NCBI GenBank assembly: GCA_005878835.1
Contig: VBMV01000071.1
Span: 1-41,465 of the forward strand
Source of the DNA: Gammaproteobacteria bacterium
GTDB taxonomy: Bacteria > Pseudomonadota > Gammaproteobacteria > Steroidobacterales > Steroidobacteraceae
Direction of reading: 5' to 3'
Length of the DNA: 41,465 nucleotides
Shown in pieces: positions 2,159 through 30,783 of this stretch. The notes below the pieces were generated by a model, which was given only the letters and a program-made list of their open reading frames with translations, made no database searches and had not been told where the DNA came from. Both the position numbers and the translations under genes were made by a program. Within the stretch, counting starts at the first letter, position 1; each line of letters starts with the position of its first letter.

Positions 2159-2181
2159 CGCGGTCTCCCCTGTGCGCGCGC

Positions 2182-3351: not shown

Positions 3352-3366
3352 AGCTGCGCGGGTGCC

Positions 3367-4179
3367 TCAACCGTCCTTGCTCGGCTTGAAGTCGGGAGGG
3401 GCTTCACCGTCGTAGTTGATCGCCTGCGCCGCGGCGTGCGACATGACGAAGCCGATGGCGCGCTGCTGTTCCTCGAGCAGATGGGCGACGAGCCCCGCGG
3501 TGCGCGCAAGCAGCGGCACACCCTTCAGGGCCAGCAGCGGATAACCGGCATCCAGGAGCACCGCCGGAATCGCTCCGGAGACGTTGAGCGCGAGCGGACG
3601 GCCGATGACTTCCGGCAGGAGCCGCTCGACGACGCGGGCAATCTCCGCGTGGTGCCCCGAGGTATTCGCCTCGACGGCCACCTCGAGCAGGCGCTGTGCG
3701 CGGGGATCACCGCCCCGGTGCAGCGGATGGCCATAGCCAGGGATCGCCTGCTCGGCCTCGCGGTACTCGCGCAGCACCTCGCGGGCCGCCGCCTCGAGTG
3801 AGGCAGCGCTCTTGCCGCGGGCATCGATCTGCGCAAGGAAACGACCCGCGGCCTCAGAAGAGCCGAGGACCACCGACCCGCACCCAAGAATCCCGGCCGC
3901 AACCGCTCCCTGCAGAGCCTCGGGCGCCGCCGCCAGGGTCATGCGGGAGACTTGAACGCTCGGCACCAGCCCGTGTTCGGCGATCGCCACCAGCGTTGCA
4001 TCGAGCACGCGCAGCTGAGCGGGTGTGGGCAACGAACCGGTCACCAGCAGCCAGAAGTGCTCGGTGAAGCTGATCCTGCCGATCAGTTCACGCGTCAGAT
4101 CACGCCCCCGGACGAGGATGGTCTGTTCGTTCGAGGTCGAAATCGCCGAGCTGCGTTGGTCCTGCCGCCCGATCTTCAA
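3367..4179 (-). CDS. Citrate synthase-superfamily protein, citryl-CoA lyase-like
   Basis: A 270-residue, short citrate-synthase-fold protein. Family marks are EHG near residue 69, GYGHPLHRGGDPRA (H151, H154), NVSGAIPAVLLDAG and RTAGLVAHLLEEQ. The usual LHGGA catalytic segment is replaced by ILGCGSVVLGSSEAA, with no His, which fits the citryl-CoA-lyase-like subgroup rather than true citrate synthase. It probably catalyses a retro-aldol or Claisen cleavage of a branched hydroxyacyl-CoA made by the adjacent CoA-transferase; this is inference. The start is TTG at 4179, preceded by GAGGGGG about five bases away. It is the first gene of the minus-strand operon and shares its promoter region with the divergent IclR gene. 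Confidence 0.82.
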   Translation of the reverse strand: MKIGRQDQRSSAISTSNEQTILVRGRDLTRELIGRISFTEHFWLLVTGSLPTPAQLRVLDATLVAIAEHGLVPSVQVSRMTLAAAPEALQGAVAAGILGCGSVVLGSSEAAGRFLAQIDARGKSAASLEAAAREVLREYREAEQAIPGYGHPLHRGGDPRAQRLLEVAVEANTSGHHAEIARVVERLLPEVIGRPLALNVSGAIPAVLLDAGYPLLALKGVPLLARTAGLVAHLLEEQQRAIGFVMSHAAAQAINYDGEAPPDFKPSKDG

Positions 4180-4196
4180 TTGGCCCCCTCAAGTGC

Positions 4197-4213
4197 ATTT
4201 CGCATACCGAAAT
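4197..4213. promoter_or_regulatory. Palindromic operator 1 (ATTTCG-N5-CGAAAT)
   Basis: Reads ATTTCGCATACCGAAAT, with perfect 6-bp inverted arms around a 5-bp spacer. It lies 17 bases upstream of the TTG start of the lyase-like gene. The same arms recur at 4288-4304. The site is most likely bound by the IclR-type regulator encoded next door. A weaker copy (GCGTCG-GTATC-CGAAAC) lies at 4216-4232, centred 19 bases away. Confidence 0.7.
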
Positions 4214-4287
4214 AGGCGTCGGTATCCGAAACAATATACTGGACTTGCCCCTGGACCCTCGTCAAGGCTGCTGCGCGCCCTTCCGAC

Positions 4288-4304
4288 ATTTCGGATATCG
4301 AAAT
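4288..4304. promoter_or_regulatory. Palindromic operator 2 (ATTTCG-N5-CGAAAT)
   Basis: Reads ATTTCGGATATCGAAAT. Both arms are identical to operator 1 and only the spacer differs. It ends 11 bases before the GTG start of the IclR gene, so binding there would also control the regulator itself (autoregulation, inferred). Confidence 0.7.
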
Positions 4305-4315
4305 AGACTGCGTGC

Positions 4316-5125
4316 GTGGCCAAGGGTAGGAAAACGCCGGTGCGTCGTGAGGCGATGGGCGGACTCGCAAAGGGACTCGCCGTGATCCGCGCCTTTTCGC
4401 GCGATCATGCGGCCTTGAGCCTCAGTGACATCGCGCGCAGTGCCCGCATTCCGGCCGCCACGGCACGACGCTGCCTGCTAACGCTGGAGGAGCTCGGCTA
4501 CGTCACGCGCAGCGCGCGTGATTTTCTGCTGCGCCCGAAAGTGCTCGAGCTCGGCGCGGCATACCTGGAATCGATGAATATCGAGCAGATCACCAAGAAT
4601 CACCTCGAAGAGCTGGCACGCAACACGGCCGACTCGGCAGCCCTGTGCGTGCTGGATGGGGTCGAGATCGTCTACATCGCACGCACCTCGGTGCGCACGC
4701 TGCTGCGCCTTGAAGCCCACGTCGGCAGCCGCTTCCCTGCGCACGCCACCTCGACGGGCCGCGTCCTGCTTGCCGGCGTGAGTCCGGAGCGGTTGCACCG
4801 CTATTTCCAGACCGCCAAGCTCGAAGCCCTCACCGAGCGCACCGTCACCGATCCGCAGAAGCTGCGTGCGTTGATCGAGGATTGCCGTCGCAATGGCTAC
4901 GCGGCGGTGGAAGATGAACTTGCCTATGGCGTCATCGCGCTCGCCGTCCCGGTTCTCGACCACCATGGTCGTGTGGTCGCAGCCCTCAACTCATCGAGTC
5001 ATTCACGCCGCACAACCAAGTCCAAGCTGGTGCGCGAACGGTTAGCGATGTTGCAGCAAGTGAGCCGGCAGATTTCTGCGGACCTCGCCACCGTTCCCTG
5101 GCTGTCTTTGAGCGCACAGATCTAG
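4316..5125 (+). CDS. IclR-family transcriptional regulator (PcaR/PcaU/PobR-like)
   Basis: A 269-residue regulator with an N-terminal winged helix-turn-helix and a C-terminal effector-binding domain. The stretch GLAKGLAVIRAFSRDHAALS, then LSDIARSARIPAATARRCLLTLEELGYV, resembles the PcaR/PcaU/PobR branch, which governs aromatic acid catabolism. The effector domain carries ARTSVRTLLRLEAHVGSRFPAHATSTGRVLL, typical of the family. GTG 4316 gives the longest protein; ATG 4355 (residue 14) is an alternative and still keeps the whole HTH. It is divergent from the lyase/CoA-transferase/MetE-like operon with palindromic operators between them, so it very likely regulates that operon and the hydrolase-WrbA pair downstream. 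Confidence 0.93.
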   Translation: MAKGRKTPVRREAMGGLAKGLAVIRAFSRDHAALSLSDIARSARIPAATARRCLLTLEELGYVTRSARDFLLRPKVLELGAAYLESMNIEQITKNHLEELARNTADSAALCVLDGVEIVYIARTSVRTLLRLEAHVGSRFPAHATSTGRVLLAGVSPERLHRYFQTAKLEALTERTVTDPQKLRALIEDCRRNGYAAVEDELAYGVIALAVPVLDHHGRVVAALNSSSHSRRTTKSKLVRERLAMLQQVSRQISADLATVPWLSLSAQI

Positions 5126-5193
5126 TCCCGCAAGCCTCGGAGCGGGTGCGCTTGACGACCGTCAGGTGAGACCGTAGCCTGAGTGCGAAAAAT

Positions 5194-5210
5194 TTTTCGC
5201 TATTCGAATT
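5194..5210. promoter_or_regulatory. Candidate third operator before the hydrolase gene
   Basis: Reads TTTTCGCTATTCGAATT. Each 6-base arm matches five of six bases of the ATTTCG/CGAAAT arms found twice in the divergent promoter, and the 5-base spacer is the same length. It lies 19 bases before the hydrolase start, suggesting that the hydrolase and quinone reductase belong to the same IclR regulon. Confidence 0.5.
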
Positions 5211-5229
5211 TCGGGCTAATTTCGGGCTT

Positions 5230-6075
5230 ATGCTGGCAACGAGCGCAGCGAGGAATCTGGCGACGCACCCTGTAGACCAGTACCTCACGGTGGAAGACGC
5301 GCGTCTGCGCTTCCGAGACGAGGGCGCAGGTGCTGCGGTCATACTCCTGCACGGCTGGACCCTGGACCTCGAAATGTGGGATCCGCAGGTCGCGAGGCTG
5401 CGGCAGGCGTACCGCCTGGTGCGCGTGGATAGGCGCGGTCACGGATTCTCGAGCGGCACGCCCTCAACAGCACGCGATGCGACTGACGTTGCCGCCCTTT
5501 GTCACCATCTCGGGCTGATCCGGGTCGCGGTCATCGGCATGTCGCAGGGGGCGCGTACTGCCCTTGCTTTCGCCGGCGGCGCGCCCGAGCGCGTGGACGC
5601 CGTCATTCTCGACGGACCGCCCTCCTTCGAGCTTGCCCCCGCCGACGAGGACGTGCCATTCGAGCACTTGCGAACCGTCGCGCGCACGCGCGGCATGGCC
5701 GCCTTTCGGCGCGAATGGCTGCGCCATCCGCTTACCCGACTGCGCACTGCGGATCCGCAGATGCGCGCTCGTCTCATCGCGATGATCGAGCGGTTCGCAG
5801 GCAACGAGTTCACCGATTCCCCGCTCGACTCGGACGTGCTTTCGGTACCGGCGCTGCCGCGGTCATCGAACGCGCCAGCATTGGTGCTCAGCGGCGAGCT
5901 CGACGTGCCGCGCCGGGTTCAGTGCGCCGATCGCCTGAGCGTGCAGCTGCCGCGCGCCGAGCGGGCCGTGATCACCGGCGCCGGCCATCTGCCCAATCTC
6001 GACCGGCCGGACGAGTACACCGAAACATGCCGCGCCTTTCTGAACCGGCACACGCGGGCGCGCAGCACGCCCTGA
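5230..6075 (+). CDS. Alpha/beta-fold hydrolase
   Basis: A 281-residue alpha/beta hydrolase. The oxyanion segment LLHGWTLD is at about residue 41. The nucleophile elbow GMSQGA gives Ser105, the acid is probably Asp225 in SGELDVP, and the base His253 is in GAGHLPN. VDRRGHGFSSG is typical of esterase and C-C hydrolase members. It could hydrolyse an ester, lactone or ring-cleavage product; the sequence does not decide. It lies about 100 bases after the IclR gene behind a candidate operator, and nine bases before the WrbA-like gene, with which it forms an operon. No signal peptide is evident, so it should be cytoplasmic. Confidence 0.88.
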   Translation: MLATSAARNLATHPVDQYLTVEDARLRFRDEGAGAAVILLHGWTLDLEMWDPQVARLRQAYRLVRVDRRGHGFSSGTPSTARDATDVAALCHHLGLIRVAVIGMSQGARTALAFAGGAPERVDAVILDGPPSFELAPADEDVPFEHLRTVARTRGMAAFRREWLRHPLTRLRTADPQMRARLIAMIERFAGNEFTDSPLDSDVLSVPALPRSSNAPALVLSGELDVPRRVQCADRLSVQLPRAERAVITGAGHLPNLDRPDEYTETCRAFLNRHTRARSTP

Positions 6076-6084
6076 GGAGTCGCC

Positions 6085-6699
6085 ATGCCAAGGGTTCTGG
6101 TTCTTTACTACAGCAGCTACGGCCACATCGAGGCCATGGCTTACGCGCAGGCTGAAGGCGCCGGCCGTATTGCCGGAGCGCAGGTGACCGTCAAGCGGGT
6201 TCCCGAACTGACACCGCCCGACGTCGCGCGTGCCGCCGGCTTCAAGCTCGAGCAGAGGGCGCCGCTGGCGCGCCCGGAAGAGCTGGATCAGTACGACCTG
6301 ATTCTGTTCGGCACTCCAACCCGCTTCGGCAACATGGCGGCGCAGATGCGCAACTTCCTCGATCAGACCGGCGCCCTGTGGATGAGCGGCGCACTCGTCG
6401 GCAAGGTCGGCAGCGTTTTTTGCAGCACTGCCAGCCAGCACGGCGGCCAGGAGACGACCATCACCTCCTTCCACAGCACCCTGCTCCACCACGGAATGAT
6501 CGTGGTCGGCCTGCCCTACACGTTCAAGGATCTCGCGACGATGCGCGAGGTGACCGGCGGGACTCCCTACGGCGCGAGCTGTGTAACCGGGACGGGGAGC
6601 GAAACGCGTATGCCGACGGCATTGGAGCTCGAGATGTGTCGCTACCAGGGCGAGCACGTCGCCCGAATCACGGCTCGCCTGGTCTCCGGTTCGGCGTGA
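6085..6699 (+). CDS. wrbA: NAD(P)H:quinone oxidoreductase, WrbA-like flavoprotein
   Basis: A 204-residue flavodoxin-fold protein that reduces quinones by two electrons using FMN and NAD(P)H. The FMN phosphate loop appears as [14 protein letters not shown]. The WrbA signature segments [20 protein letters not shown] and [15 protein letters not shown] follow, then [12 protein letters not shown]. Length is typical of WrbA. The start is ATG 6085, preceded by GAGGAG. It is co-transcribed with the hydrolase, so here it may handle quinone or hydroquinone intermediates of the catabolic pathway; that part is inferred from context. Confidence 0.93.
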
Positions 6700-6884
6700 C
6701 GGGTGCTACCAGATTTTCGAGCAAATGGCCGCATGAGCCACAAAAGACCGTAGCCACCCGGCGACCGGGATCGTGAGGCAGTGCACAAGTCCGCAAGATC
6801 GGTACTTGTCGCAGCTTGCTGTCGCAACTTGATGACGGGTTGCGCCAATGACACGGGATGTCCCAGCGCGTAGCATGCTCCCCG

Positions 6885-6976
6885 TACTCGAAGGGCAAAC
6901 CCGTCGTGAGGCGGGGACGCAAAGCTTCCGGTCTTGAGAGCCTAATCGGCTCGTGAAGACAGCGGGGTTGCCGGCA
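6885..6976 (+). ncRNA. Cyclic-di-GMP-I (GEMM-I) riboswitch
   Basis: The sequence carries the conserved GEMM-I elements in order: GGGCAAACC at 6893-6901, a hairpin CCCGTC-GTGA-GGCGGG with a GNRA loop, GGGACGCAAAGC at about 6914-6925, CCGGTCT, a variable stem (GAGCCTAATCGGCTC), then AGACAGCGGGGTTGCCGG at 6957-6974. The order and wording closely match the Vibrio cholerae Vc2 aptamer. It lies in the leader of the Ig-repeat lipoprotein gene, about 110 bases before its start. No T-rich intrinsic terminator follows, so control may be on translation; a CAGCC/GGCTG pairing near 7051-7067 could belong to the expression platform. Boundaries are approximate. The rest of the 6700-7086 interval shows no gene. 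Confidence 0.93.
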
Positions 6977-7086
6977 GCGCGCAATGTCTACGGTGGCGCG
7001 CGTCGTCAGTTCTCTGGTGTTGTCTCTACGCTCTCACTGATCGCGCTCTGCAGCCCGCAGCTGGCTGTCAACAGGGTGGGTCGTGC

Positions 7087-9414
7087 GTGCACATATGCAA
7101 CGTATTCGCGGTCGCTGATCTCAGGATCGGTCACCTCGCCTGGTGTACCGTAATCGCAGTCACACTCGCTGGTTGCGGCGGGAGCGACACAGCCGCTCTC
7201 GTCGTCAACGGCACGCCGCCCACTTCGGTGCAGGCCGGCGCCAAGTATCAATATATCCCGTTGGTTTCCAATCCTGCAGGGCGTCCGCTGACCTACGACA
7301 TAACCAGCAAGCCTGAATGGGCCACATTTGTTCCATCGTCCGGCGAGCTCTTCGGAACTCCGGGCAACAGCGACGTCGGCACCAGCGCGGAAATTGAGAT
7401 CGGTGTGTCGGACGGCACGACTCGCGCCATCATCGGTCCGTTCCGTATCACGGTGAACCCTCCAGCTACCCCACCGCCCGTTACGCCTCCAGCGATCGCG
7501 GGCACACCGGCCGCGACCGTGACTGCCGGTCAACCCTACAGCTTCCAGCCCATGGTCACCAATCCCGGGCGCTCGACGTTGAGCTTTACGATTGTCAATC
7601 GACCCGCTTGGGGGACTTTCAGCACCGCAACGGGTGCGCTCTCGGGAACGCCCACCACCATCAACGAGGGCACCTTTGCCAACATCCTGATCAGCGTGAG
7701 CGACGGCCACACAACCGCGTCCCTGCCCGCATTCTCCATTCAAGTACAGGCTCCCGCCAGCAACGCGCCGACAATATCGGGTACGCCTGCGCCTACGGTG
7801 GTTGCCGGCAACCAGTACGCCTTCACGCCGGCCGCAGCTGATCCGGATGGTCATGCGCTGACCTTCAGTATTCTGAACGCGCCCTCATGGGCAAGCTTCA
7901 GCGCCAGCACCGGTCAGCTGTCGGGATCCCCTCCGACAGCCGATGTTGGCGTCTTCTCCAACATCGTCATCACCGCAAGCGACGGCACCCTGACCGCCTC
8001 GCTCCCAGCCTTTTCGATCCAGGTACTGGCGCCCGCGAATGACACGCCGACGATCTCCGGTATCCCCCCAACGAGCGTCGTAGCAGGTAGCAACTATTCG
8101 TTTCAGCCGAGCGCCACCGATCCAGCTGGCAAGGTCCTCACCTTCTCCATACAGGCCATGCCCCCGTGGGCTACCTTCTCGGCGAGCACCGGAGCGCTCA
8201 CGGGAACACCCACTTCCGCCAACATCGGAACCTTCACGGGCATCGTCATCGCCGTCAGCGACGGGACCTCGACCGCCGCGCTCCCGGCCTTCTCGATCCA
8301 GGTTCAATCGCCGCCGGATCACGCGCCCGTGATCGGCGGCACGCCGTCCACAAACGTCGTCGCCGGGGCTAGCTATTCGTTCACGCCGACCGCGGGCGAT
8401 CCCGATGGGGACACGCTGACATTCTCGATCGCGAACCAACCGTCCTGGGCGACCTTCAGCAGCCGTACCGGACAGCTCTCGGGGACGCCAGCGAAAACCA
8501 ATACCGGCACGTTCTCCAACATCGTGATCAGCGTCAGCGACGGGACCTTGACCGCCGCGCTCCCGGGCTTCTCGATCCAGGTTCAACCGCCGCCGGATCA
8601 CGTGCCCGTGATCGGCGGCACGCCGTCCACGAACGTCGTCGCCGGCGCCAGCTATTCGTTCACACCGACCGCGAGCGATCCCGATGGGGACACGCTGACG
8701 TTCTCGGTTGCCAACCGCCCGTCTTGGGCGAGCTTCAGCAACACCACCGGGCAGCTTTCCGGAACGGCGACGACAGGCAATGTCGGCATCTTCTCGGGCA
8801 TCGTGATCAGCGTCAGCGACGGGACTCTCACCACCTCGCTTCCGGCCTTCGCCATTGCCGTATCTGCGCCCGCCAATCCGCCGCCGACCATCACTGGCAC
8901 ACCTGCGACGTCGGCAAACGCCGGCACGGCTTACAGCTTTACACCAACTGCTTCGGATCCGAACGGCAACGCGCTGACGTTCAGCATTCAAAACCCGCCG
9001 AGCTGGGCTTCGTTCAATACGCAATCCGGCAACTTATCCGGAACACCCGGGTCGGGCGATGCCGGAACTTATTCGAACATCATCATCAGCGTAAGCGACG
9101 GAACATCCACCGCGTCGCTCGCCGCGTTCAGTATCATCGTGACGCAGGTCGCAAACGGCAGCGCGACCGTAAGTTGGAGTGCGCCCACGCAGAACACGGA
9201 TGGCTCCGCTCTCACGAACCTTGCGGGATTCAACATCTACTACGGCACATCGGCAAGCAACCTCAACCAGTCGGTGCAAATCGCAAACCCCGGCCTGACC
9301 ACCTACGCCCTCGGCAATCTTGCGCCCGGAGCCTGGTATTTCGCGGTCAATGCCTATACGGCGGCGGGCGCCGAGAGCGCGCTCTCCAGTATCGCCAGCA
9401 AAACGATTCCGTAA
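7087..9414 (+). CDS. Surface lipoprotein with seven Ig-like repeats and a fibronectin III domain
   Basis: A 775-residue exported protein. The N-terminus has a hydrophobic stretch ending in a lipobox (VTLAGC), so it is probably a lipoprotein. Seven repeats of about 93 residues follow, each with the pattern P.I.GTP.T...AG..YSFTP.A.DP.G..LTFSI...P.WA.F...TG.LSGTP....G...NI.ISVSDGT..A.LPAFSI.V, as in putative Ig/dystroglycan-type cadherin-like domains. The C-terminal about 90 residues (ATVSWSAPTQNTDGSALTNL ... GAWYFAVNAYTAAGAES) form a fibronectin III domain. Such proteins act as adhesins or matrix scaffolds. The start is GTG 7087, with CAGGGTGGG upstream. A c-di-GMP riboswitch in the leader suggests control by biofilm signalling. 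Confidence 0.88.
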   Translation: MHICNVFAVADLRIGHLAWCTVIAVTLAGCGGSDTAALVVNGTPPTSVQAGAKYQYIPLVSNPAGRPLTYDITSKPEWATFVPSSGELFGTPGNSDVGTSAEIEIGVSDGTTRAIIGPFRITVNPPATPPPVTPPAIAGTPAATVTAGQPYSFQPMVTNPGRSTLSFTIVNRPAWGTFSTATGALSGTPTTINEGTFANILISVSDGHTTASLPAFSIQVQAPASNAPTISGTPAPTVVAGNQYAFTPAAADPDGHALTFSILNAPSWASFSASTGQLSGSPPTADVGVFSNIVITASDGTLTASLPAFSIQVLAPANDTPTISGIPPTSVVAGSNYSFQPSATDPAGKVLTFSIQAMPPWATFSASTGALTGTPTSANIGTFTGIVIAVSDGTSTAALPAFSIQVQSPPDHAPVIGGTPSTNVVAGASYSFTPTAGDPDGDTLTFSIANQPSWATFSSRTGQLSGTPAKTNTGTFSNIVISVSDGTLTAALPGFSIQVQPPPDHVPVIGGTPSTNVVAGASYSFTPTASDPDGDTLTFSVANRPSWASFSNTTGQLSGTATTGNVGIFSGIVISVSDGTLTTSLPAFAIAVSAPANPPPTITGTPATSANAGTAYSFTPTASDPNGNALTFSIQNPPSWASFNTQSGNLSGTPGSGDAGTYSNIIISVSDGTSTASLAAFSIIVTQVANGSATVSWSAPTQNTDGSALTNLAGFNIYYGTSASNLNQSVQIANPGLTTYALGNLAPGAWYFAVNAYTAAGAESALSSIASKTIP
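8311..8868 (+). repeat. Near-identical 279-bp tandem repeats inside the lipoprotein gene
   Basis: Ig-like repeats 5 and 6 begin with the same DNA (CCGCCGGATCACG...) at 8311 and 8590, 279 bases (93 codons) apart. They stay nearly identical for long stretches, while the other repeats are more diverged. This indicates a recent duplication and a site where repeat number may change by recombination. Confidence 0.8.
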
Positions 9415-9447
9415 GTCGACCAGGTCGGCCTATTCGACAAACCAACC

Positions 9448-10161
9448 CTAGCGCGTCACCTCGAGAATCTTTGCAATTCTCGTCTCCGCGTCCGTCCGGA
9501 TCTTGAACTCCACACGCCGCGAGCGCGCCGCGTCCTCCTTGCCCGATGCATCAAGAATCAGCCTCGATGAGGACAATCCGTTCGCGGTCACCAGGCGACG
9601 GAGCCAGTCGACGTCGCCGCGAACCTGGGGGAGCATCAGCACATAGAGCAGGGTTGATCTAGTCCGTGCCTGCGAAAGCTCCATGTTGTGCAGATAGGCG
9701 TCGTCGGGCGATGCAGCGCCGATCCAATCCGATGATGTATGTCCCTCAATACGGATCTCGCTGATCGCACGCAGATACTTCGGCGACCTCAGAATTCTCA
9801 CGTAGCGGGGAAAGAAGTCGTCCAAAATGTCCTTGAAAGCCGGCTTCAACTCACTGCTGCCCTGGGCAAACAGAATGTCCGGCTCCGAGAACCGGAGCGT
9901 CAGATCCGCCTTGATGAGCTGGGCGTGCCATCTGGGCAGATCCGGGGAGAACTCCTTGCGCAGCTCCTCATAGAGGGCGTCACGGGTCTCACTGTACGCA
10001 ACGGCCACCGTTTTTATCCTGCCGGCGTCCGCCTCGACCCGTATCATGTAGCACACTGCGATCAGTAGAAACATGACCATGAGCCCGGTCATCAAATCGC
10101 TCAAGGGAATCCAATGAGCTTCCGATGCGGCGGTCCGATCCGCGGACAAAACGTCGTTCAC
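9448..10161 (-). CDS. ZorB-like OmpA/MotB-domain protein
   Basis: A 237-residue inner-membrane protein with one N-terminal transmembrane helix and a periplasmic OmpA-type peptidoglycan-binding domain. The helix segment PLSDLMTGLMVMFLLIAVCY carries Asp22 at the place of the proton-pathway Asp of MotB and ZorB. The OmpA-like part includes ILFAQGSSELKP, IRIEGHTSSDWIGA and ARSRRVEFKI. It overlaps the ZorA-like gene by four bases (ATGA), so the two are translated together. ZorB pairs with ZorA as a proton-driven motor in Zorya anti-phage systems; ExbD/MotB-type partners in other machines are alternatives. The gene converges with the lipoprotein gene and leaves no room for zorC, zorD or zorE after it. 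Confidence 0.85.
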   Translation of the reverse strand: MNDVLSADRTAASEAHWIPLSDLMTGLMVMFLLIAVCYMIRVEADAGRIKTVAVAYSETRDALYEELRKEFSPDLPRWHAQLIKADLTLRFSEPDILFAQGSSELKPAFKDILDDFFPRYVRILRSPKYLRAISEIRIEGHTSSDWIGAASPDDAYLHNMELSQARTRSTLLYVLMLPQVRGDVDWLRRLVTANGLSSSRLILDASGKEDAARSRRVEFKIRTDAETRIAKILEVTR

Positions 10162-11159
10162 CGCTGCGCCCTCGTGGCCTGGACGGATTCAGCTGGATGT
10201 CGCGACACTGCGCCGAGCGTCTCCTGATTCGGCCGAACGCCCTGCCCGCTCCGACCAATCATCTGAGCGATTCTCTGCTCTATGATCGGCAACCCCTCTT
10301 TCACCTCGGCTATCAGCCCGGAAAGCAGCAGGAGTGCCCGGGCGAGCTGCTCACTCTGATTATTCAGCGCTCCCATAATGTTCTGCAGCGATCGCGCCAC
10401 TGCAGCAAATTCCGACGCCATGTTCACGATATCAGTGAAGCGTGAAGCCGCTTCCGTCATGCTCTCCCGGGTCGCGGTCTCCTGCTCTATCAAGGCCTGC
10501 AGTTGCTTCTCGTATTGAACCAGCCAGGAAACCAGCCTCGCGACGGCGGAGTTCAACTGCCTGAAGTTGTCGCCGAATTGCTCGTTGAGCTTCACGTTGA
10601 AGTCCCGGACCACTTCCGATAGGGCCCTTACAAGCGCCTTTGAGTTCGTCTCTGCAATATTCTCCGCGTATCTGTCGAATGCTTCGATCAGCCTGTCGGC
10701 GCGAGCGTTGCTGTCCGCACGCAAGAGCTTGACCTGGCTCAACAGACCGGAATCATCGCCGCCCGCAATCGAGCGGTTGAGCTGCACCAGCAGACGGGCC
10801 AGGTCGTCCACGGTGGAGCCTTCCTGCGCACCGGACGCCGGTATGGTTGCGTCGCCAAACAGCGCGACCCGGATCTTGAGCGTGAGTGCCCAGAATATCC
10901 CAACCACGGATGCCCAGAACGCCGTGCGGATTCCCCCGAGCAGGTGCGGGACACTGTTTCGAACGTCGTTCGGGTCGAAATCCAGCAGCCCCCAGGCAAT
11001 GCCCGCGAAGCAGAAGAATATGCCGAGGGTCGTCAGGATCGTGGGGCCGAGTGCCGTGGCGCGGCGTGACCACCTGAGGTGGAACAGCAGGGCAATTGAC
11101 GATATCAGTACGGTGGCGAATTGCGTAAAGCCGTTGAGATATTCCCAGATGCGTCCCAT
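10158..11159 (-). CDS. ZorA-like MotA/ExbB-family channel protein with helical tail
   Basis: A 333-residue protein. Three hydrophobic segments lie near residues 14-30, 40-60 and 75-95. The second (LGPTILTTLGIFFCFAGIAW) and third (LLGGIRTAFWASVVGIFWAL) match the pore-lining pattern of MotA/TolQ/ExbB and particularly ZorA. After residue 95 comes a long, mostly helical cytoplasmic tail rich in heptad-like segments. It is far shorter than the tail of Zorya type I ZorA proteins, which are about 700 residues. I chose ATG 11159 over 11219 because GAGGAGAAGG lies just before it and membrane homology begins there. It pairs with the ZorB-like gene by a four-base overlap. The predicted role is a proton-driven motor or sensor in the inner membrane. 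Confidence 0.85.
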   Translation of the reverse strand: MGRIWEYLNGFTQFATVLISSIALLFHLRWSRRATALGPTILTTLGIFFCFAGIAWGLLDFDPNDVRNSVPHLLGGIRTAFWASVVGIFWALTLKIRVALFGDATIPASGAQEGSTVDDLARLLVQLNRSIAGGDDSGLLSQVKLLRADSNARADRLIEAFDRYAENIAETNSKALVRALSEVVRDFNVKLNEQFGDNFRQLNSAVARLVSWLVQYEKQLQALIEQETATRESMTEAASRFTDIVNMASEFAAVARSLQNIMGALNNQSEQLARALLLLSGLIAEVKEGLPIIEQRIAQMIGRSGQGVRPNQETLGAVSRHPAESVQATRAQR

Positions 11160-11607
11160 CGCCTTCTCCTCGACACGCGACCCAGGCGGCCAGGACCAGC
11201 CGCTCGCGAACGTCCGCATGGGCCGCCAAGGAATCTACAAGCCTTCGTTAGAAGCCTGGTGGTGGTGGCGCGGGCAGGACGGCCGGCATTCTTCGGGCAG
11301 TAGCGTGTGCAACGTCCATGTAACCTTCGAACCACGACTGTACGCCGTTCGGACCACCGTTTCGACGTGCTCCGGTAACGATCCGACTCGGCGGCAGTTC
11401 AGATCTCGTAGATGCTATGGCTCGGGCCTAACCGGAGCCGTGTCGGGGCGATGACCTGCCTCGAAACGGCTCTGCGCTATCCTGCCCCGATCGCGGCCTA
11501 CCCGATCATGATCGGCAGCGACGGCGTCCTCATCCCGGTGGCGAGCTTCGGGTTCCTCAAGTCGGGCCGCTTCGCGCCGGGGGCGCTCTCGGCCTCGCGA
11601 TCGGCGG
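11160..11607. other. 448-base stretch without a confident gene
   Basis: Lies between the ZorA-like gene and the 2OG oxygenase. The first bases hold the ZorA-like ribosome binding site. An 84-codon plus-strand frame (11412-11666) contains a protein-like stretch (IAAYPIMIGSDGVLIPVASF) and shifts to another protein-like frame (GGYIAALAPVG) near 11600. This could be the remnant of an old gene, but I do not recognise it. No clear terminator or repeat was seen. Confidence 0.4.
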
Positions 11608-12297
11608 TTATATCGCCGCCTTGGCGCCTGTCGGTTGCCACAACGGCTTGCTCAGATTCTCCGTGAACGACGAGAACATGATGTTGAAGCTGATGCTGAT
11701 CCGCTCGTCCTCGCTCGCGCTCGCGTCGACGGAGTGCTGCAGGTAAGCCGGAAATACCAGCATCGTTCCGTCCTTCACTCTCACGACGACCTGGTCGGTA
11801 TTCTCGGCCGTGAGCTCGACGACCGGGGGGCGGATGATCCCGGTCTGATTGCGCGGGTCATGAAAGTTGATGGTGTCCGCGCCTGGATGGGTCCGGACAT
11901 AGTACACACCGCTCAGGAAGTTGTTCGGGTGCTGGTGCATCTTGTGCGCGGCGCCTGTCGCGAGAACTGTCGCCCAGCAGGCGGTGACTTGGTACGCGTC
12001 GTAGCCGATCCTGAGGAACCGCAGGATTCCCGGCACGACGCGGTGCACGCAGGAAACGAGATCCCGGAAGTCATCGAGCTCGTGGAGTGACTGGACCGAC
12101 TGCCACCCCTGGCCGCGCGCGAGCGGGGGCAGGTCCCGCCTCAGGCGCGCGATCGCTGCGAGCGCCTGGGCGCCGATGGCCTCGCGCAACCGTGCCTCGA
12201 GCTCGATCTTCCACACCAGCGTGGCAAACATCGGAATCACATCCGATGTCTCGCTCCGCCTGGGGCTCTGAGGGTCTGATGGCGGCTCGCGCTGCAT
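11608..12297 (-). CDS. Putative 2OG-Fe(II) oxygenase (TIGR02466-like)
   Basis: About 229 residues. The core has HKMHQHPNNFLSGVYYV, TINFHDPR, RVKDGTMLVFPAYLQHSVDA and ERISISFNIMF, which is the layout of the TIGR02466 family of 2-oxoglutarate/Fe(II) dioxygenases (double-stranded beta helix, His/Asp-His iron site, Arg for 2OG). The family begins at FATLVWKIEL, so the first 25 or so residues are poorly conserved. ATG 12297 is chosen; GTG 12315 and ATG 12231 are also possible. Members have no settled substrate and are often near peptide or prolyl-modifying genes and in phages. A small protein gene lies just upstream on the same strand and may be in its transcript. Confidence 0.8.
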   Translation of the reverse strand: MQREPPSDPQSPRRSETSDVIPMFATLVWKIELEARLREAIGAQALAAIARLRRDLPPLARGQGWQSVQSLHELDDFRDLVSCVHRVVPGILRFLRIGYDAYQVTACWATVLATGAAHKMHQHPNNFLSGVYYVRTHPGADTINFHDPRNQTGIIRPPVVELTAENTDQVVVRVKDGTMLVFPAYLQHSVDASASEDERISISFNIMFSSFTENLSKPLWQPTGAKAAI

Positions 12298-12378
12298 GGT
12301 CGAACTGCACGCCACATGATGCGCCGCGATCGAAAGCCCTGGAGCATCGGCTGTCCCGGGCTTTCGGCCTTCAACCGC

Positions 12379-12546
12379 TCAGACGGTTTCCGCCTCGGGC
12401 TCGACTTCCTTCGGCTTGTCCGTCTCGGGCTTCGGGCGATCGGCTGGCGCGCCAGGCCGCAGACGGTCAATCACAGACCTGGGCTCTTCGCGCTTCTGGA
12501 CCTTCGTCGCTCCCTGCTGCAAGAAGAATCGTTCCTCGTAGCACAT
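12379..12546 (-). CDS. Small conserved-looking protein, 55 residues
   Basis: A short gene starting at ATG 12546 with a near-perfect ribosome binding site (CAGGAGGAC, six to seven bases upstream) and ending at TGA 12379. The protein begins MCYEERFFLQQGATKVQKRE and ends in a charged, proline-rich tail (KPETDKPKEVEPEAETV). I recall small hypothetical proteins starting MCYEERFF in other Proteobacteria, but cannot search to confirm. It has no membrane segment or signal peptide. It is 60-80 bases upstream of the 2OG oxygenase on the same strand, so co-transcription is possible. Function unknown. Confidence 0.72.
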   Translation of the reverse strand: MCYEERFFLQQGATKVQKREEPRSVIDRLRPGAPADRPKPETDKPKEVEPEAETV

Positions 12547-12767
12547 GGCTGTCCTCCTGCGATGACTTTATCGTGGCTCCCTGCGGCAAAGGATAGCATC
12601 GGGGCGGCCACTGCGCGCCTCGCGTGGTTGCCAGAGGATGAGCGGGCCTGACGACCGTCACGAGCGGGCGGTCCGGCGAGCCTTCCCGCATGGGCTTTCC
12701 CGCCGATTTTCCAGACACCGAGGTTAGGTGCGATCATGACTTTGGAGGCGTGGGATGGGAAGGCGCG

Positions 12768-14552
12768 ATGAACGGCACGCTTTCACTTATCGAACTGGCA
12801 GGCCATGTGGGCCTTCTCCTGTGGGGCACGCACATGGTCGGCACCGGGGTGCAGCGCGGCTTCGGCACGGTGCTCCGGCGCTGGCTCGGCCGCAACCTCG
12901 GTCGCCGCTTCCGCGCGTTCCTGACCGGGCTCGCCGTGACCGCGCTCCTCCAGAGCAGCACCGCAACGGGTCTGCTCGCGACCTCGTTCACGGCCACCGG
13001 GGTGATCGCGCTCGCCCCCGCGCTCGCGGTCATGCTCGGCGCCAACGTCGGCACAGCACTCCTGACACAGGTGCTCGTCTTCAACCTGGCCCTGGTGGGG
13101 CCACCGCTGGTGCTCGTCGGCGTGCTCGTTTTCCGTTGGGCCGGCGGCGGCCGGGTGAAGAATATCGGCCGCATCGGCATCGGCCTCGGGCTCATGCTCA
13201 TGGCGCTCGCGGGCCTGGTGCGCACGCTGGGACCCCTCGAGGGCATTCCGTTGCTGCGCTCGGTCATGGGCGCGCTGGCCGGTGACCCCATCCTCGGGGC
13301 GCTGGTCGCAGCGGCACTCACCTGGGCATGCCACTCGAGCATCGCCATCGTGCTGCTCGTGGCGACGTTCGCCGCCACACACGTCGTCGATCCAACCGCC
13401 GCTCTCGCCCTGGTGCTCGGCGCGAACCTGGGCGGGGCACTGCCCGCGCTGGTCGACGCCTCGACCTCCGCCGCCCGGCGCCTGCCGCTCGGAAACCTGC
13501 TGGTGCGCACCGTGGGCGTGGTGCTCGCGCTGCCATTCCTGCCCGCGATCACTCGTGCACTCGAGCTCGCCGCGCCGGCTCCCGGGCGTCTCGTCGTCAA
13601 CTTTCACCTGGCGTTCAATCTGGCACTCGCCGCGGTGTTCCTGGGGTCCGTCAGAGGCCTCGCGGCCCTGCTCACGCGGTGGCTGCCGGACCCGCCGGCG
13701 CCGGCCGATCCGGGCCGGCCCGTCTATCTCGACGTCGCGGCCCTTGATTCCGCCACGGTGGCCCTTGCGAACGCTGCCCGCGAAACTCTGCGCATGGCCG
13801 ACATGGTCGAGACGATGCTCCGCGATGCGCTCGAGGTACTCCAGCATAATGATCGCACACGCGCCGAGGCGGTCGCCGCACAGAATCGTTGTGTCGATCA
13901 GCTGGGTAGCGCGATTCGCCGCTATCTCGCCGACGTCGGCGGCGAGCAGACCCTCGACCACCAGCGGGAGGGTGCACGGGGACAGGACATCCTGTCGGCC
14001 GTGATCAACCTCGAGCATGTCGCCGACATCGTCGCCAACAGTCTGGTCGAGTTTGCAGTGCGGAGTGTCAAGCGCGGCAGGGCGCTCACGGTCGAGGAAA
14101 TCGAGACCGTCGCCGCCATGCACGCCGAGCTCCTCGAGAGCCTGCGGCTCGCACTGGCCGTCTTCCTGCAGGCCGAGCCCCGGGACGCCAAGCGCCTGGC
14201 CGCGCGCAAGGGACAGTTCCGTGAGTTCGAAGCGACCGCCACGGCATTGAGCGTGCGCCTCCTGCGCAATGCCGCCGCAGCCAGCCGGGTCACCGACACC
14301 GACGCGGTCGAACCCATGGTTGAGGAGAGCGGCCTCTTCCTGCGCACGGTGCGCGACCTCAGGCGCATTCACTCGCACCTCGCGAGCTTCGCCTACCCGA
14401 TCCTGCATCGACCCCGCACCCGAGGCCGGCGCGCCACCGCGCGTGGCGTTGCCGAGGCTGGTGCCGTCAATCCGCCTGCCGCGCCGCTGCCGATTGGGCC
14501 GCCAAAGTCCACCAGCCGGACGGCTGGTCTCGAGGAGGACGACTTGGGATGA
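12768..14552 (+). CDS. Na/Pi cotransporter family protein with PhoU-like C-terminal domain
   Basis: A 594-residue inner-membrane transporter of the NptA/YjbB type, which moves inorganic phosphate with sodium. About eight hydrophobic segments fill residues 10-320, with the duplicated core: LLQSSTATG (Q62-T65) and GANVGTALL in the first half, CHSSIAIVLL (188-197) and GANLGGALPALV in the second. The second motif has His in place of the usual Gln. Residues about 330-560 form a helical PhoU-like regulatory domain (ETLRMADMVETMLRDALEVL). ATG 12768 is preferred over an in-frame start at 12690 because GGAAGG precedes it and homology begins at once. It stands alone, convergent with the GGDEF gene 20 bases away. 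Confidence 0.92.
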   Translation: MNGTLSLIELAGHVGLLLWGTHMVGTGVQRGFGTVLRRWLGRNLGRRFRAFLTGLAVTALLQSSTATGLLATSFTATGVIALAPALAVMLGANVGTALLTQVLVFNLALVGPPLVLVGVLVFRWAGGGRVKNIGRIGIGLGLMLMALAGLVRTLGPLEGIPLLRSVMGALAGDPILGALVAAALTWACHSSIAIVLLVATFAATHVVDPTAALALVLGANLGGALPALVDASTSAARRLPLGNLLVRTVGVVLALPFLPAITRALELAAPAPGRLVVNFHLAFNLALAAVFLGSVRGLAALLTRWLPDPPAPADPGRPVYLDVAALDSATVALANAARETLRMADMVETMLRDALEVLQHNDRTRAEAVAAQNRCVDQLGSAIRRYLADVGGEQTLDHQREGARGQDILSAVINLEHVADIVANSLVEFAVRSVKRGRALTVEEIETVAAMHAELLESLRLALAVFLQAEPRDAKRLAARKGQFREFEATATALSVRLLRNAAAASRVTDTDAVEPMVEESGLFLRTVRDLRRIHSHLASFAYPILHRPRTRGRRATARGVAEAGAVNPPAAPLPIGPPKSTSRTAGLEEDDLG

Positions 14553-14572
14553 CTCCCGGCAGACCAGGGCGA

Positions 14573-15652
14573 TTACGCGTTGGACCCAACGCTCACCTCT
14601 CGCATAGCGACGCCATTGCGCCCGGCCCGCTTGGAGCTGATCAACGCCTGCTCGGCGGCCTCCAGAACCGCCTGGGTGCTGGCGCCGTCCTCAGGAAAGA
14701 TTGCAACTCCCGCCGACAGGGTGATCGGTCCGAGTTGAGGATCGTTGTGCCCGACCTCGAGGCTCCGCGCTCGCTGGCGAATCAGATCCGCGCGCTGCCA
14801 CACGATCTGCCGCGACACGTTCGCCATCAGCAGAGCGAATTCGTCGCCGTCGTAGCGGGCGACGAGGTCTTCGGCGCGCGCCAGCGACACCACGCACTGA
14901 CCGACGGACCGCAGGATCGCATCACCCGCAGTGCGCCCAAGCGTGTCGTTGAATTCCCTGAAATGATCGACGTTGATCATCATCACGGCGAATGTATGGC
15001 CGTGGCGCTGGGCGCGCACTTTCTCGCGGTCCAGCGATTCCTCCAGGAAGCGACGGTTATACACGCCGGTCACTGAGTCCCGCATGGCCTGATCGTGCAG
15101 CCGTCGGTTGGCGTGCACCAGATCGTGCTCCGCCCAGATTCGCTTCTTGATCTCGAGATCGAGCGCCGTGCGCGCCACCTCGAGTTGCGCGCTGCGCTCC
15201 GCCACGCGTCGCAGGAGCCTGGCGATCGGCTGCACCAGCAACTCGACCGATTGCTGGTCCGCCACCCGAGCCGCCTCCTGCGGCGCCGGTTCGCCCAGAG
15301 TGGCACTGACGGTCGCGAGCAGTAGCTCGGGATTCGTCGGCTTGATCACGAATGCAGCGCCAAAGACGTGTGCCAGCGAGCGCGCTTCGACTTCAACGTT
15401 TGCGACCGCGCGCACCAGTACGCGCGGCTGCGGCAGGCTCGGGTCGCAGCGCATCCGCACCACGAGTTTGCATCCGTCGATGTCGGGCGCAGCGACGTCC
15501 ATGATCATGAGGTCGGGGCGCTCCAGCCGCACGAGCCTCAGGGCTTCATCGGCGTCGCCGACGTCCCGCACGCGGTTGCCGTGGTTGCGCAGCAGCGCGG
15601 CGATCAAGCGGCGGCTGGCCGAGTTGACGTCAAAGACCAGGATGTTGGCCAT
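14573..15652 (-). CDS. Response regulator with GGDEF domain (diguanylate cyclase-like, altered active site)
   Basis: 359 residues. An N-terminal receiver domain (residues 1-120) has the phospho-acceptor candidate Asp52 (LMIMDVAAP) and Lys in VIKPTN, but only one acidic residue in the usual acidic pocket (FDVNSAS). A helical linker leads to a GGDEF domain at about 185-350. The signature is D268-G-D-E-F, so the first Gly/Ala/Ser is Asp. The metal-binding Asp of the LDxDxFK motif is Asn227 (INVDHFREFND). The inhibitory RxxD site is present (R259-D262). Catalysis may be weak or lost, with c-di-GMP binding retained. It is the last gene of a run that begins with the two hybrid kinases, 21 bases after the SpoIIAA-like gene. 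Confidence 0.9.
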   Translation of the reverse strand: MANILVFDVNSASRRLIAALLRNHGNRVRDVGDADEALRLVRLERPDLMIMDVAAPDIDGCKLVVRMRCDPSLPQPRVLVRAVANVEVEARSLAHVFGAAFVIKPTNPELLLATVSATLGEPAPQEAARVADQQSVELLVQPIARLLRRVAERSAQLEVARTALDLEIKKRIWAEHDLVHANRRLHDQAMRDSVTGVYNRRFLEESLDREKVRAQRHGHTFAVMMINVDHFREFNDTLGRTAGDAILRSVGQCVVSLARAEDLVARYDGDEFALLMANVSRQIVWQRADLIRQRARSLEVGHNDPQLGPITLSAGVAIFPEDGASTQAVLEAAEQALISSKRAGRNGVAMREVSVGSNA

Positions 15653-15673
15653 GCGCTTGAGGAGTTGCGCGTC

Positions 15674-16039
15674 TCAGCGCGCACCCCTGAACCATTCCAG
15701 TGCCGACTGATCGTCGCGAAAATGCCGCACGTTGATTCCGTGCAGTCGGCCCATCAGCACGAAATACTCATGCGAGTGATCCAGCTCCTGGTCGTCCGCG
15801 ATCAGGGCGATCTTGTGTGAAGGATCGACGCCGACGTTGGTGAATCGCGCGAGAAATCCCGACCGCTCCACGGTGAACATTGGACTGGAGGCATGCACCG
15901 AGATGAGGATGTGGGAGCGGTGATGCCGCGTGGCAGAGTCGGCGACCGCGTCAAAGAACTCCCTGGCTTCCTCGGCGGTTTCCCGGTTGAAAACGTCCGC
16001 CCTCAGGTAGTCGTGTTCGGTTGCAATCCGATACACCAT
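15674..16039 (-). CDS. STAS/SpoIIAA-like domain protein
   Basis: 121 residues, no signal peptide or membrane segment. The pattern of a central VGVDPSHKIALIADDQE strand-turn and the C-terminal HGINVRHFRDDQSALEWFRG resembles the SpoIIAA-like (PF11964-type) STAS proteins. These small proteins often accompany signalling genes and may bind partners in phosphorylation-linked switches. It sits directly before the response regulator-GGDEF gene in the same direction, so it may modulate that protein. The function is inferred from fold and context only. Confidence 0.65.
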   Translation of the reverse strand: MVYRIATEHDYLRADVFNRETAEEAREFFDAVADSATRHHRSHILISVHASSPMFTVERSGFLARFTNVGVDPSHKIALIADDQELDHSHEYFVLMGRLHGINVRHFRDDQSALEWFRGAR

Positions 16040-16053
16040 GGCCCCACGAACAC

Positions 16054-16179
16054 ATGAATACCAGACGCGATGAATACCAGAGTCGATGCGACAGAAACGA
16101 CATTCGTGGATGGTTCTTATGACCCATCGGGTCAGCGGGCGGTCCGTGGGCAGGCCGGCGGCCGTGGGCAGGCCGGCGG
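16054..16179. repeat. Two short tandem repeats between SpoIIAA-like and hybrid kinase genes
   Basis: The gap holds two separate tandem duplications. ATGAATACCAGACGCG (16054-16069) is followed by ATGAATACCAGAGTCG (16070-16085), a 16-base unit. CCGTGGGCAGGCCGGCGG occurs perfectly twice, at 16144-16161 and 16162-16179. The second pair is beside the kinase stop codon. They may be replication slippage products, or the first may be a binding site for a regulator; nothing more can be said. Confidence 0.75.
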
Positions 16180-16198
16180 TCCCTCAGGCGGCCGCGGT

Positions 16199-18379
16199 TC
16201 AGGATAGACCGCTCGCGCTGCGTTCGCGGGCCGCCAGCGGGTCCGCGTCGGATCGAGGGGATTGCGCTGCCGCGACCAGGCTGAGGAGTCGCTCGCTGAA
16301 CGAGCTCACCGCCTGTTCCAGGAGCTCGCAGGTCGCACGTGCCTGCTCCTTGTGCTGCTGTGGATCGAGTGATTGCAGACTCGCCGCCAACTGCTCGGCT
16401 GCCGTCGCGCGAACGTTGCGCAGCATCCCGCGCAGCGTGTGCACCGCGCTGCCGAACGTTTCGGCATCACCGCTCTGAATCGCTTCGCGCAGGCCGCTCA
16501 TGTGCCGGGCAGACTCGCGCGCGAACAATTCCGCTATCTCAGCCAGCAGCCGCGGGTCGCCGCCGACCTGCTCGAGCAGGGTCGCCGCATGAGCCCCGGC
16601 CGACTGCACATCGGCATCTGCGCCCGCCTGCTCAGGCCTGAGGCCGAGTCGCTCGACCGCATCGAGCAGCGCCGTCGGGTGGATCGGCTTGACCAGATAG
16701 CCGTCCATTCCCGCGTCCAGGCAGCGCTCGCGGTCCCCGGCCATGGCATGGGCGGTCAGCGCGATGATCGGCAGGCGTCGCCCGCAGCGCCGTTCGGACT
16801 GACGAATCGCGCGGGTGGTGTCGATCCCGTCCATGCCGGGCATCTGCACATCCATCAAGATCAGATCGAAGCGACCGTGTTGCAACGCTTCCAGAGCAGC
16901 CGCCCCGCTGTCGACCGCCGTGATCGCGTGTCCGTGTCGCGCCAGCACGATCTGTGCAAGTCTGCGGTTCGCGGAATTGTCTTCCACCAGCAGCACGGCC
17001 AGCTTTGGCGCGCCAGGGCGTGGACGGGCGCGGCGCGCCTGGGGTGGCGCGCCACGACGCACGGGCGCCTCAGCCGTGCGATCCGCGAGCCCGAAGCGCA
17101 CCGTGAAATGAAAGGTACTTCCCTTTCCCGGCGTGCTCTCGAGCCAGATGCGGCCCCCCATCATCTCCACCAGACGGGCCGAGATGGTGAGTCCCAGCCC
17201 CGTGCCGCCATAGTGCCGGGTTGTGGAGGCGTCGACCTGCCGGAAAGGCGAGAAAACGGCCGCCTGCTTCTCCGCCGCAATCCCGACTCCGGTGTCACGC
17301 ACCGAGAAATAGCAACATAGATCTCCGTTGGCGGAGGATTCCGGCCGGACGCGCACGATGACACCGCCATGTTGCGTGAACTTGATGGCGTTGCCTACCA
17401 GATTCAGCACGATCTGCCGCAGTCTCAGGGGATCGCCGAGCAGCGCGTCCGGTGTCTGCGGCGCGACCTCCCATGAGAGATCGAGCCGCTTGGCGCTGGC
17501 CTCGATGACCAGCGTCTTCATGGCGCCGTCAATGCATTCCCTGAGCGAAAACGGAATCGTCTCCACCGTCAGGTGCCCGGCTTCGATCTTGGAGATGTCG
17601 AGAACGTCATTGACGATGGCGAGCAACGACTCGCCCGAGGCTCGAACCAGCTCCAGACATTCGCGCTGCTCCGCGGTGAGCTCCGTCTGCAGCGCAACCT
17701 GCGTCAGGCCGATGATCGCGTTCATCGGCGTGCGAATCTCGTGGCTCATGTTGGCCAGGAACTCGGACTTTGCCCGATTGGCCTGCTCGGCTGCTTGCTT
17801 GGCCACGAGCAACTCCGCGTCGGCGCGTTCACGCATCTGCATTTCCCTGCGCAGCTGGTCGTGGGCCGAGATCAGGTTCGCGGTGCGCTCGCGGATCTTG
17901 ACCTCGAGATCGTCTTTCGCCCTGAGTAAGTCGCGTTGCGCACTCCGATGCACGAGCAGCTGCGTTGCGAGGTCGGCGCTCCTCTTGTTGAGGTCGACGA
18001 AAACCGCCACCTTGGACTTCAACGCTTCGGGGTCCACGGGCTTGAAGATGTAGTCGACCGCACCGACCTCATAGCCCCGCTGCACCCATTCCCTGTGATC
18101 ATCCGCCGCGGTCAGGAACACGATGGGAGTGTACCGGGAGCGCTTGAGCTTGCGGATCAGGGCGGCGGTTTCGAACCCGTCCATCTGCGGCATGCGCACG
18201 TCCAGCAGGATGAGCGCGAAGGCGGCTCGCAGGATCCAGCGCAGCGCCTCCCTGCCCGAGGCCGCGGTCACCACGTTGCGGTCCGGGCCGCACAACAGCG
18301 CCTGCAGCGCCTTGAGGCTGTGCGGCTCGTCATCGACGACGAGAATATTTACGCCAGCCGAGTCGGTCAGGCTGCTCAT
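16199..18379 (-). CDS. Hybrid histidine kinase: receiver-HisKA-HATPase-receiver-Hpt
   Basis: 726 residues, no membrane segment. An N-terminal receiver domain (10-130) has phospho-acceptor Asp60 ([13 protein letters not shown]). A coiled coil leads to HisKA with His213 in [14 protein letters not shown], then the ATPase with [10 protein letters not shown] (N box), DTGVGI and [10 protein letters not shown] second receiver follows ([25 protein letters not shown]), then a C-terminal Hpt domain with HTLRG. It therefore carries a complete phosphorelay in one cytoplasmic protein. It starts three bases after the stop of the larger hybrid kinase, so they are co-transcribed and may exchange phosphate. 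Downstream outputs may include the receiver-GGDEF protein, which is an inference from proximity. Confidence 0.94.
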
Positions 18380-30730: not shown

Positions 30731-30783
30731 GGCTAGTGCCTCCTCGACCGACCCTGGTTTTTTATCGATCCTCAAGCTGTCAT

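Follow-up and report, generated by a model that had tools for sequence, protein, structure and literature searches.

The 41,465-nucleotide stretch analysed here (the window) carries a zorA-zorB gene pair of the type II Zorya family, in that order and in an accessory position, which retains the residues of the pore and of the peptidoglycan site and has neither a recognisable zorE nor the conserved tip of the ZorA tail. We propose, with a probability of roughly 0.55, that the pair represents what is left of a type II Zorya system, its ZorA5B2 core, after zorE and the ZorE-associated tip of ZorA were both lost in the lineage, and that this core is now decoupled, without Zorya-type defence and with constraint fading in the window's own branch. 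After such a loss, ZorB would still grip peptidoglycan and protons would still pass at Asp22, turning a shortened ZorA rod that would have lost the ability to deliver a nickase where a phage attacks; the leftover activity, if any, may be ion flow or envelope sensing.

This proposal is to be read against what has been published on type II Zorya. According to the accessible text of PMC11890865, defence requires every component of Zorya II as well as the ZorA tail, mutations of the tail abolish activity, and so do mutations of the ion and peptidoglycan residues of type II ZorB. In the model given there, ZorB senses a disturbance of the peptidoglycan, ion flow turns ZorA, and upon infection the ZorA rod recruits ZorE to the membrane, and there ZorE nicks DNA. 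Type II ZorAB without ZorE gives no protection in that account (PMC11890865), so an anti-phage activity of the window pair as a minimal defence system is possible and not favoured; ZorAB is likewise described as not sufficient in the available part of PMC8565338. By sequence, the window pair keeps the sensor and motor parts and has lost both the delivery end and the effector; a decoupled core is therefore favoured over a working minimal defence. The preliminary description of this locus had offered three possibilities, namely a minimal defence system, a system with an unknown effector or a machine with another job. None of them is established by the present analysis, and a fourth that was absent from its list, with the pair as a remnant of a once complete Zorya II, is no less likely.

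A diverged type II ZorAB pair

The two open reading frames are intact, lie on the minus strand and share the four bases GTGA (10158-10161, read from the sequence), in which the zorA stop meets the GTG start of zorB; the overlapping arrangement reported in the preliminary description is thus confirmed. The zorA-like gene (10158-11159, minus strand) encodes 333 amino acids of a type II ZorA motor subunit. Its start is placed at the ATG of 11159: a longer frame opens at 11219, yet the alignment to relatives begins at 11159. The zorB-like gene (9448-10161, minus strand) encodes 237 amino acids with a membrane Asp22 and an OmpA-type peptidoglycan-binding domain (Pfam OmpA, 7.6e-8). Asp22, which had also been pointed out beforehand, occupies a column that is invariant across 16 aligned ZorB rows, and the alignment shows D22, H141, S143 and the arginines of SRRVEF all retained, so that the protein has the membrane aspartate and the peptidoglycan-binding residues of type II ZorB.

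Both proteins are assigned to type II by their PADLOC matches, ZorA to ZorA2 (PDLC00637, E 9.5e-96) and ZorB to ZorB2 (PDLC00641, E 9.7e-92), values that exclude a chance match. The best type I ZorA model reached only 1e-13; for ZorB, the model labelled ZorB1 (PDLC00609) gave 7.7e-53, weaker than ZorB2, and the best ZorB3 model 9e-6. The top NCBIfam matches are also type II models, though under their cut-offs (128 bits against 700 for ZorA with the equivalog NF041792; 240 against 400 for ZorB with NF041787), and the window pair is therefore regarded as a diverged member. The closest solved structure is the type II ZorAB of Sulfuricurvum kujiense (PDB 8VVI; 7.9e-53 for ZorA, 3e-56 for ZorB). 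Membership of MotAB, ExbBD or TolQR was rejected: Pfam MotA_ExbB, which matches five other places of the genome, has no match in the window ZorA, the profiles favour Zorya, and MotB-type NCBIfam models reach at most 33 bits on the window ZorB, against 240 for the ZorB2 model. The earlier suggestion of ZorAB rather than MotAB or ExbBD, for which a profile search against ZorA/ZorB, MotA/MotB and TolQ/TolR models had been advised, is borne out, and the type can be specified as II. By homology to 8VVI, the pair would be expected to form a ZorA5B2 assembly with ion flow.

Absence of a recognisable zorE and of the ZorA tail tip

For ZorE, the designation of the pair as an orphan, without effector on either side, is supported by the window, by the assembly and by another lineage of the same genus; for ZorC, ZorD, ZorF and ZorG it holds among the 14 window proteins scanned with PADLOC, none of which matched. 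A ZorE profile run against the window's own assembly (4.18 Mb, 186 contigs, 95% complete) gave no match at E<=1, tblastn with ten ZorE proteins or fragments against the window gave nothing at E<=0.5, and tblastn and profile scanning of the window detected no zorE remnant. No ZorE HNH nickase was thus found encoded with zorAB in the window or the assembly. The site occupied by zorE in relatives is here a gap of 33 bp (9415-9447), free of any remnant, between the zorB stop and a convergent gene for an Ig-like repeat protein (7087-9414). Neither this direct neighbour nor the one upstream, a 2OG-Fe(II) oxygenase gene (11608-12315), matches a Zorya effector, and ten more window proteins compared with PADLOC yielded no Zorya gene. 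Two partial PADLOC matches elsewhere in the window concern SduA (over 58 positions, in 18383-22540) and mad2 (positions 282-417 of 492, in 29801-30814). Two further genomes with such a ZorA, G790 and G192 (the latter containing the sister locus L018), have no ZorE at E<=0.01, the former being an assembly of 7.9 Mb with 6% contamination and the latter 81% complete.

The survey of relatives comprised 24 zorA loci gathered from genome contigs and searches at two thresholds. With the PADLOC profile at E<=1e-3, zorA matches occurred in 11 of 200 kinship-ranked genomes; at E<=1e-15 the overlapping sets gave 5/396 in the order, 14/369 in the class, 8/398 in the phylum and 4/217 in the family. Plasmids contributed 16 records with zorA relatives, four of which were retrieved. 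ZorB patterns in viral contigs led to 18 loci with at most 51% identity to the window ZorB, none of 63 stretches with ZorA patterns in viral contigs was confirmed, and one phage record contains a ZorB-like place. At 46 loci, a set that includes the window and leaves out G790, the ZorA core reached 150 bits or more, and 40 of these were judged, L018, L023, L024, L030, L038 and L158 being set aside for a contig end or a missing zorB. Beside zorB, the N-terminal domain of ZorE was matched in 38 of the 40, the exceptions being the window and L019, and the HNH domain in 34, the six without it being the window, L042, L020, L039, L040 and L019; the counts include near copies (L155/L156 and L186/L187) and so lack independence.

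Four of the loci without HNH encode, beside complete ZorA and ZorB, a ZorE of about 188-204 amino acids that ends before the HNH domain according to tblastn (L042 11118-11681; L020 11889-12500; L039 4126-4713; L040 4191-4778), and the PADLOC ZorE profile covers positions 3-187 of 282, or similar, in L006 (the same locus as L042), L020 and L039. By eye, the four proteins retain the N-terminal domain and its CxxC residues. This domain is DUF8245 in the accessible text of a preprint (PMC13192584), in which residues within it are needed for defence together with the HNH. Between L039 and L040 the silent sites of the ZorE gene are saturated with a dN of 0.228, from which we infer that the nuclease-free ZorE is being kept and that the Zorya II of these two loci is under strong constraint; dN/dS is 0.06 for zorA and 0.023 for zorB of the same two loci, where dS is high as well.

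Alternatively, the Zorya II of the window could be complete, with a ZorE gene located away from zorAB or diverged beyond recognition, an explanation that we consider very improbable. ZorE can indeed be hard to recognise, since L019 and L081 keep only its first 30-38 residues, fused to other sequence (weak matches, E 1.6e-4 and 8e-7, where three proteins were searched), and an assembly that is 95% complete in 186 contigs also speaks for this explanation. Against it count the empty assembly search at E<=1, the position of zorE close to zorB in 38 of the 40 judged relatives and the concomitant absence of the ZorA tip. Viewed by eye, the L019 gene (11872-12474) starts with about 30 ZorE-like residues, followed by a likely membrane segment of other origin. 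At L081 (4767-10243), ZorA has 1343 residues and a repeated tail, ZorB is enlarged, and the first 38 or so residues of ZorE are fused to a tail rich in Lys and Ala.

The second absence concerns the ZorA tail. Type II ZorA proteins terminate in a conserved segment, L-D-x-A-L ... S-x-x-F-V-x-D-Y-x-P-L-T, and the aligned window ZorA ends before it with the proximal tail present, so that the full cytoplasmic tail with its tip is absent and the missing piece corresponds to one definable unit. The stretch beyond the final membrane helix measures about 240 residues (helix limits set by eye), as had been described; the type I ZorA then taken as the yardstick has to be replaced by the solved type II ZorA, whose length of 378 residues makes the window protein 45 residues shorter. 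The tail of the type II protein spans residues 100-378 in the accessible text of PMC11890865. The last residues of the window ZorA align without gaps to the ZorA of G790, and the tail is therefore simply shorter. The ZorA of G790 ends within the tip region and that of the window ends earlier, in register; to judge from this alignment, the tail is shortened at two different points in the two proteins. A tip remnant past the zorA stop was sought and rejected, the last 63 bases scoring no better against L042 than shuffled sequence (139 of 1000 shuffles reach the score).

Tip scores were computed for 59 ZorA proteins on their C-terminal 75 residues; the profile applied to each came from the C-terminal 60 residues of the remaining proteins, leave-one-out and thinned, with near copies excluded and with the window, L075 and G790 never in training. 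The scoring left out L018, L024, L030, L038, L082 and L189, which are cut or without zorB, and the cores below 85 bits (L084-L086, L159-L161 and L166). The window and L075 share the lowest score of the 59 (1.2 bits) and G790 follows with 5.4, the other 56 ranging from 8.2 (L153) to 84.6, so that the three loci without a recognised ZorE have the three lowest scores, by a thin margin between G790 at 5.4 and L153 at 8.2. Among the 56 higher scorers, L023 and L158 run off their contig before zorE, L083 has the tip and a next gene that is not assignable, and nothing but the start of ZorE is present in L019 and L081. The profile was rebuilt after a first version had given 0 for nine ZorE-bearing loci (L036, L153, L163-L165 and L167-L170; also for L166), and the same nine then scored 8.2-28.9.

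The three low scorers fall in two lineages according to the trees, and the association of the ZorA2 tip with ZorE is accordingly taken as suggestive rather than statistical. L075 (5097-6979) is a tip-less ZorAB without adjacent ZorE, located between a phosphonate-binding gene and glnD; it lies on a long branch of the tree and is a second case unrelated to the window, and the sole ZorE-profile match in its genome covers 51 positions of the HNH part. A BarA-like kinase beside it was considered and rejected, the protein being a GGDEF-EAL protein. The missing tip points to a lost effector interface, and the tip may be the docking site of ZorE. The joint absence of the segment and of ZorE in two separate lineages, together with its retention beside HNH-less ZorE proteins, names a docking candidate of about 45 residues, whereas the accessible part of the published Zorya II account names no docking site on ZorA. 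Among the titles and abstracts listed, our literature search showed nothing on a ZorE-less type II ZorAB or on a link between tip and ZorE; a structural paper in Nature 2025 (doi 10.1038/s41586-024-08493-8), which lies outside its coverage, may bear on both.

Phylogeny, accessory setting and upkeep

In a tree of ZorA and ZorB together with 21 rows, the window groups with L018 (100/100), then with G790 (99/96) and then with L042 (100/100), which is the nearest outgroup of the clade and has both the tip and a nuclease-free ZorE. The AU test rejected a grouping of the window and L018 with L042 to the exclusion of G790 (p 0.020) and did not reject L042 with G790 (p 0.34); both groups were chosen after inspection of the tree, and the order of G790 and L042 is therefore likely rather than certain. 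If zorE was lost in the common ancestor of the window, G790 and L018, the pair has been kept for long without it.

The distribution is patchy. Such a ZorA occurs in only four of 217 family genomes, three of them from the window's genus, which has 58 genomes in the set, and zorAB is placed differently in the window genome (G000), G192 and G790. The sister genome G156 shares window positions 2042-6701 and much of 11618-17674, in pieces 91-95% identical, and contains nothing of 6702-11617, zorAB being absent from its matching region. Comparison of window positions 11608-14552 with L149 showed the oxygenase and phosphate-transporter-like genes in swapped order in G156. In G192, zorA comes after a CHASE3 kinase gene; after the same kinase gene in G000:C68 there is no zorA match, and a masked run is close by. 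From this patchy placement in G156, G192 and G000:C68, we conclude that zorAB is an accessory segment. Upstream of zorA, the region shared with the zorA of the sister G192 (L018) extends over 11160-11454 (minus strand, local alignment), homology stopping at 11454. It is followed by a gene fragment, judged permease-like by eye (11484-11618, plus strand), which has a longer copy in G000:C155 and is 80% identical over 139 columns to L152 1340-1474, within an open frame of 317 codons; this fragment marks a rearrangement at the edge of the zorAB segment. Sequence resembling it, about 120 bp long, recurs across the genus in many genomes. As for an insertion site, no RNA family was detected at 9000-12400 and no tRNA in the window, and the direct repeats amount to one 14-base pair only.

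This accessory pattern counts against the recruitment of the proton-driven machine to a housekeeping job in the envelope or in transport, outside defence: so small a share of the family has the gene, and its place changes between G000, G192 and G790 and is empty in G156. We rate such a role as improbable, even though distant ZorAB-like pairs with conserved neighbours do exist (L084, L086 and L082, gene names by eye). L084 (3266-4818) and L086 (4426-6068), from two genomes of one genus, have no recognised ZorE and share as neighbours a translation-factor-like gene and a protein of 216-217 amino acids; both genomes also carry a Zorya II with a ZorE-like gene (L076, L078), and the distant pair may be a housekeeping motor. 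L082 lies beside gat-like genes. Other unusual architectures were met in the survey. L159, L160 and L161 (about 4950-6460), on viral contigs, have the reversed order of a ZorB-like gene followed by a short ZorA-like gene of 256-271 amino acids, and no ZorE match was found there. At L030 (9890-11432), the HNH end of ZorE comes immediately after zorA, with no match to zorB or to the ZorE N-terminal domain, and the locus has the look of a Zorya II in decay. In L186, L187 and L188 the Zorya II locus has beside it another, distant ZorA-like frame of 865 or 690 codons, accompanied in L186 and L188 by a ZorB-like frame; these are perhaps tandem Zorya systems.

The upkeep of the pair was evaluated from substitutions. 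Over 314 codons, zorA of the window and L018 differ by 14 synonymous and 33 non-synonymous changes (dN/dS 0.77). Seven control genes, four compared with G192 and three with G156, gave 0.23, 0.70, 0.16, 0.29, 0.24, 0.09 and 0.06; zorA differs from six of them (Fisher p 7.7e-7 to 0.0068) and not from one (p 0.85). With one control at 0.70, a value of 0.77 drawn from 47 changes speaks only weakly for decay. The 31 residue differences between the two ZorA proteins divide into five on the window branch, eight on the L018 branch and 18 that are unplaceable. Between the window and G790, dN/dS is 0.26 for zorA (dS 1.4) and 0.087 for zorB (dS 2.9, near saturation). Conserved ZorA sites are changed at 9 of 55 in the window and 8 of 55 in L018, relatives having 0-20 of 55-75, so that the window ZorA is not visibly more eroded. 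At 59 conserved ZorB sites, the changes number none in the window, one in G790, three in L075 and 11 in each of L084, L085 and L086, and at a laxer cut-off the window ZorB has none of 83 changed; the L018 contig lacks its zorB and the 3' flank. The evidence on upkeep thus points in different directions, constraint over the clade and weak constraint in the newest branch.

It is in this light that a maintained two-gene derivative has to be weighed, in which ZorAB would do without ZorE and work by letting ions through the opened channel or with a tip-independent effector encoded elsewhere. The clade formed by the window, L018 and G790, with no ZorE in the window and G790 genomes and none in the incomplete L018 genome, the intact frames, the unchanged ZorB sites, the low ratios to G790, the unrelated tip-less L075 and a patchy spread like that of a defence gene are all consistent with it. 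The lack of protection by type II ZorAB alone and the loss of activity upon tail mutation, both from the accessible text of PMC11890865, and the ratio of 0.77 to the nearest sister argue in the other direction; moreover, the neighbours at the three clade loci differ by eye, so that no candidate partner stands out. We hold such a derivative to be possible, on the unlikely side. Were the pair still functional, a Zorya motor would act without a nuclease, which is not foreseen by the published model. It can be hypothesised, tentatively, that a Zorya-derived rotary motor lineage has been kept without nuclease, its shortened-tail ZorAB acting in the envelope of the genus by ion flow or through an unlinked partner, and that the type II tip is a ZorE docking module, kept with at least the N-terminal part of ZorE, even a nuclease-free one, and lost when ZorE is lost. 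The decoupled core, which we prefer, has in its favour the type II best matches, the lack of a ZorE match in the genome at E<=1, the lowest tip scores and the zorA ratio of 0.77; the intact frames, the ZorB with 0 of 59 sites changed and the window-G790 ratios of 0.26 and 0.087 count against it.

Comparison with known systems

The MotAB stator, ExbBD and TolQR have in common with the window pair, by homology, a 5:2 motor plan. Zorya types I and III share the ZorAB motor plan with it and are set apart by their further genes, neither zorC and zorD nor zorF and zorG being among the scanned window proteins. The HNH-less Zorya II-like loci (L042, L020, L039 and L040) have ZorA and ZorB close to those of the window, and differ in retaining the ZorA tip and the ZorE N-terminal domain that are absent there. 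Type II Zorya, as represented by 8VVI, differs from the window, which is without a recognisable zorE and has a ZorA that stops before the conserved tail tip; the two are alike in the ZorA motor domain, the proximal tail, ZorB over its full length, the membrane aspartate, the peptidoglycan-binding residues and the order zorA-zorB.
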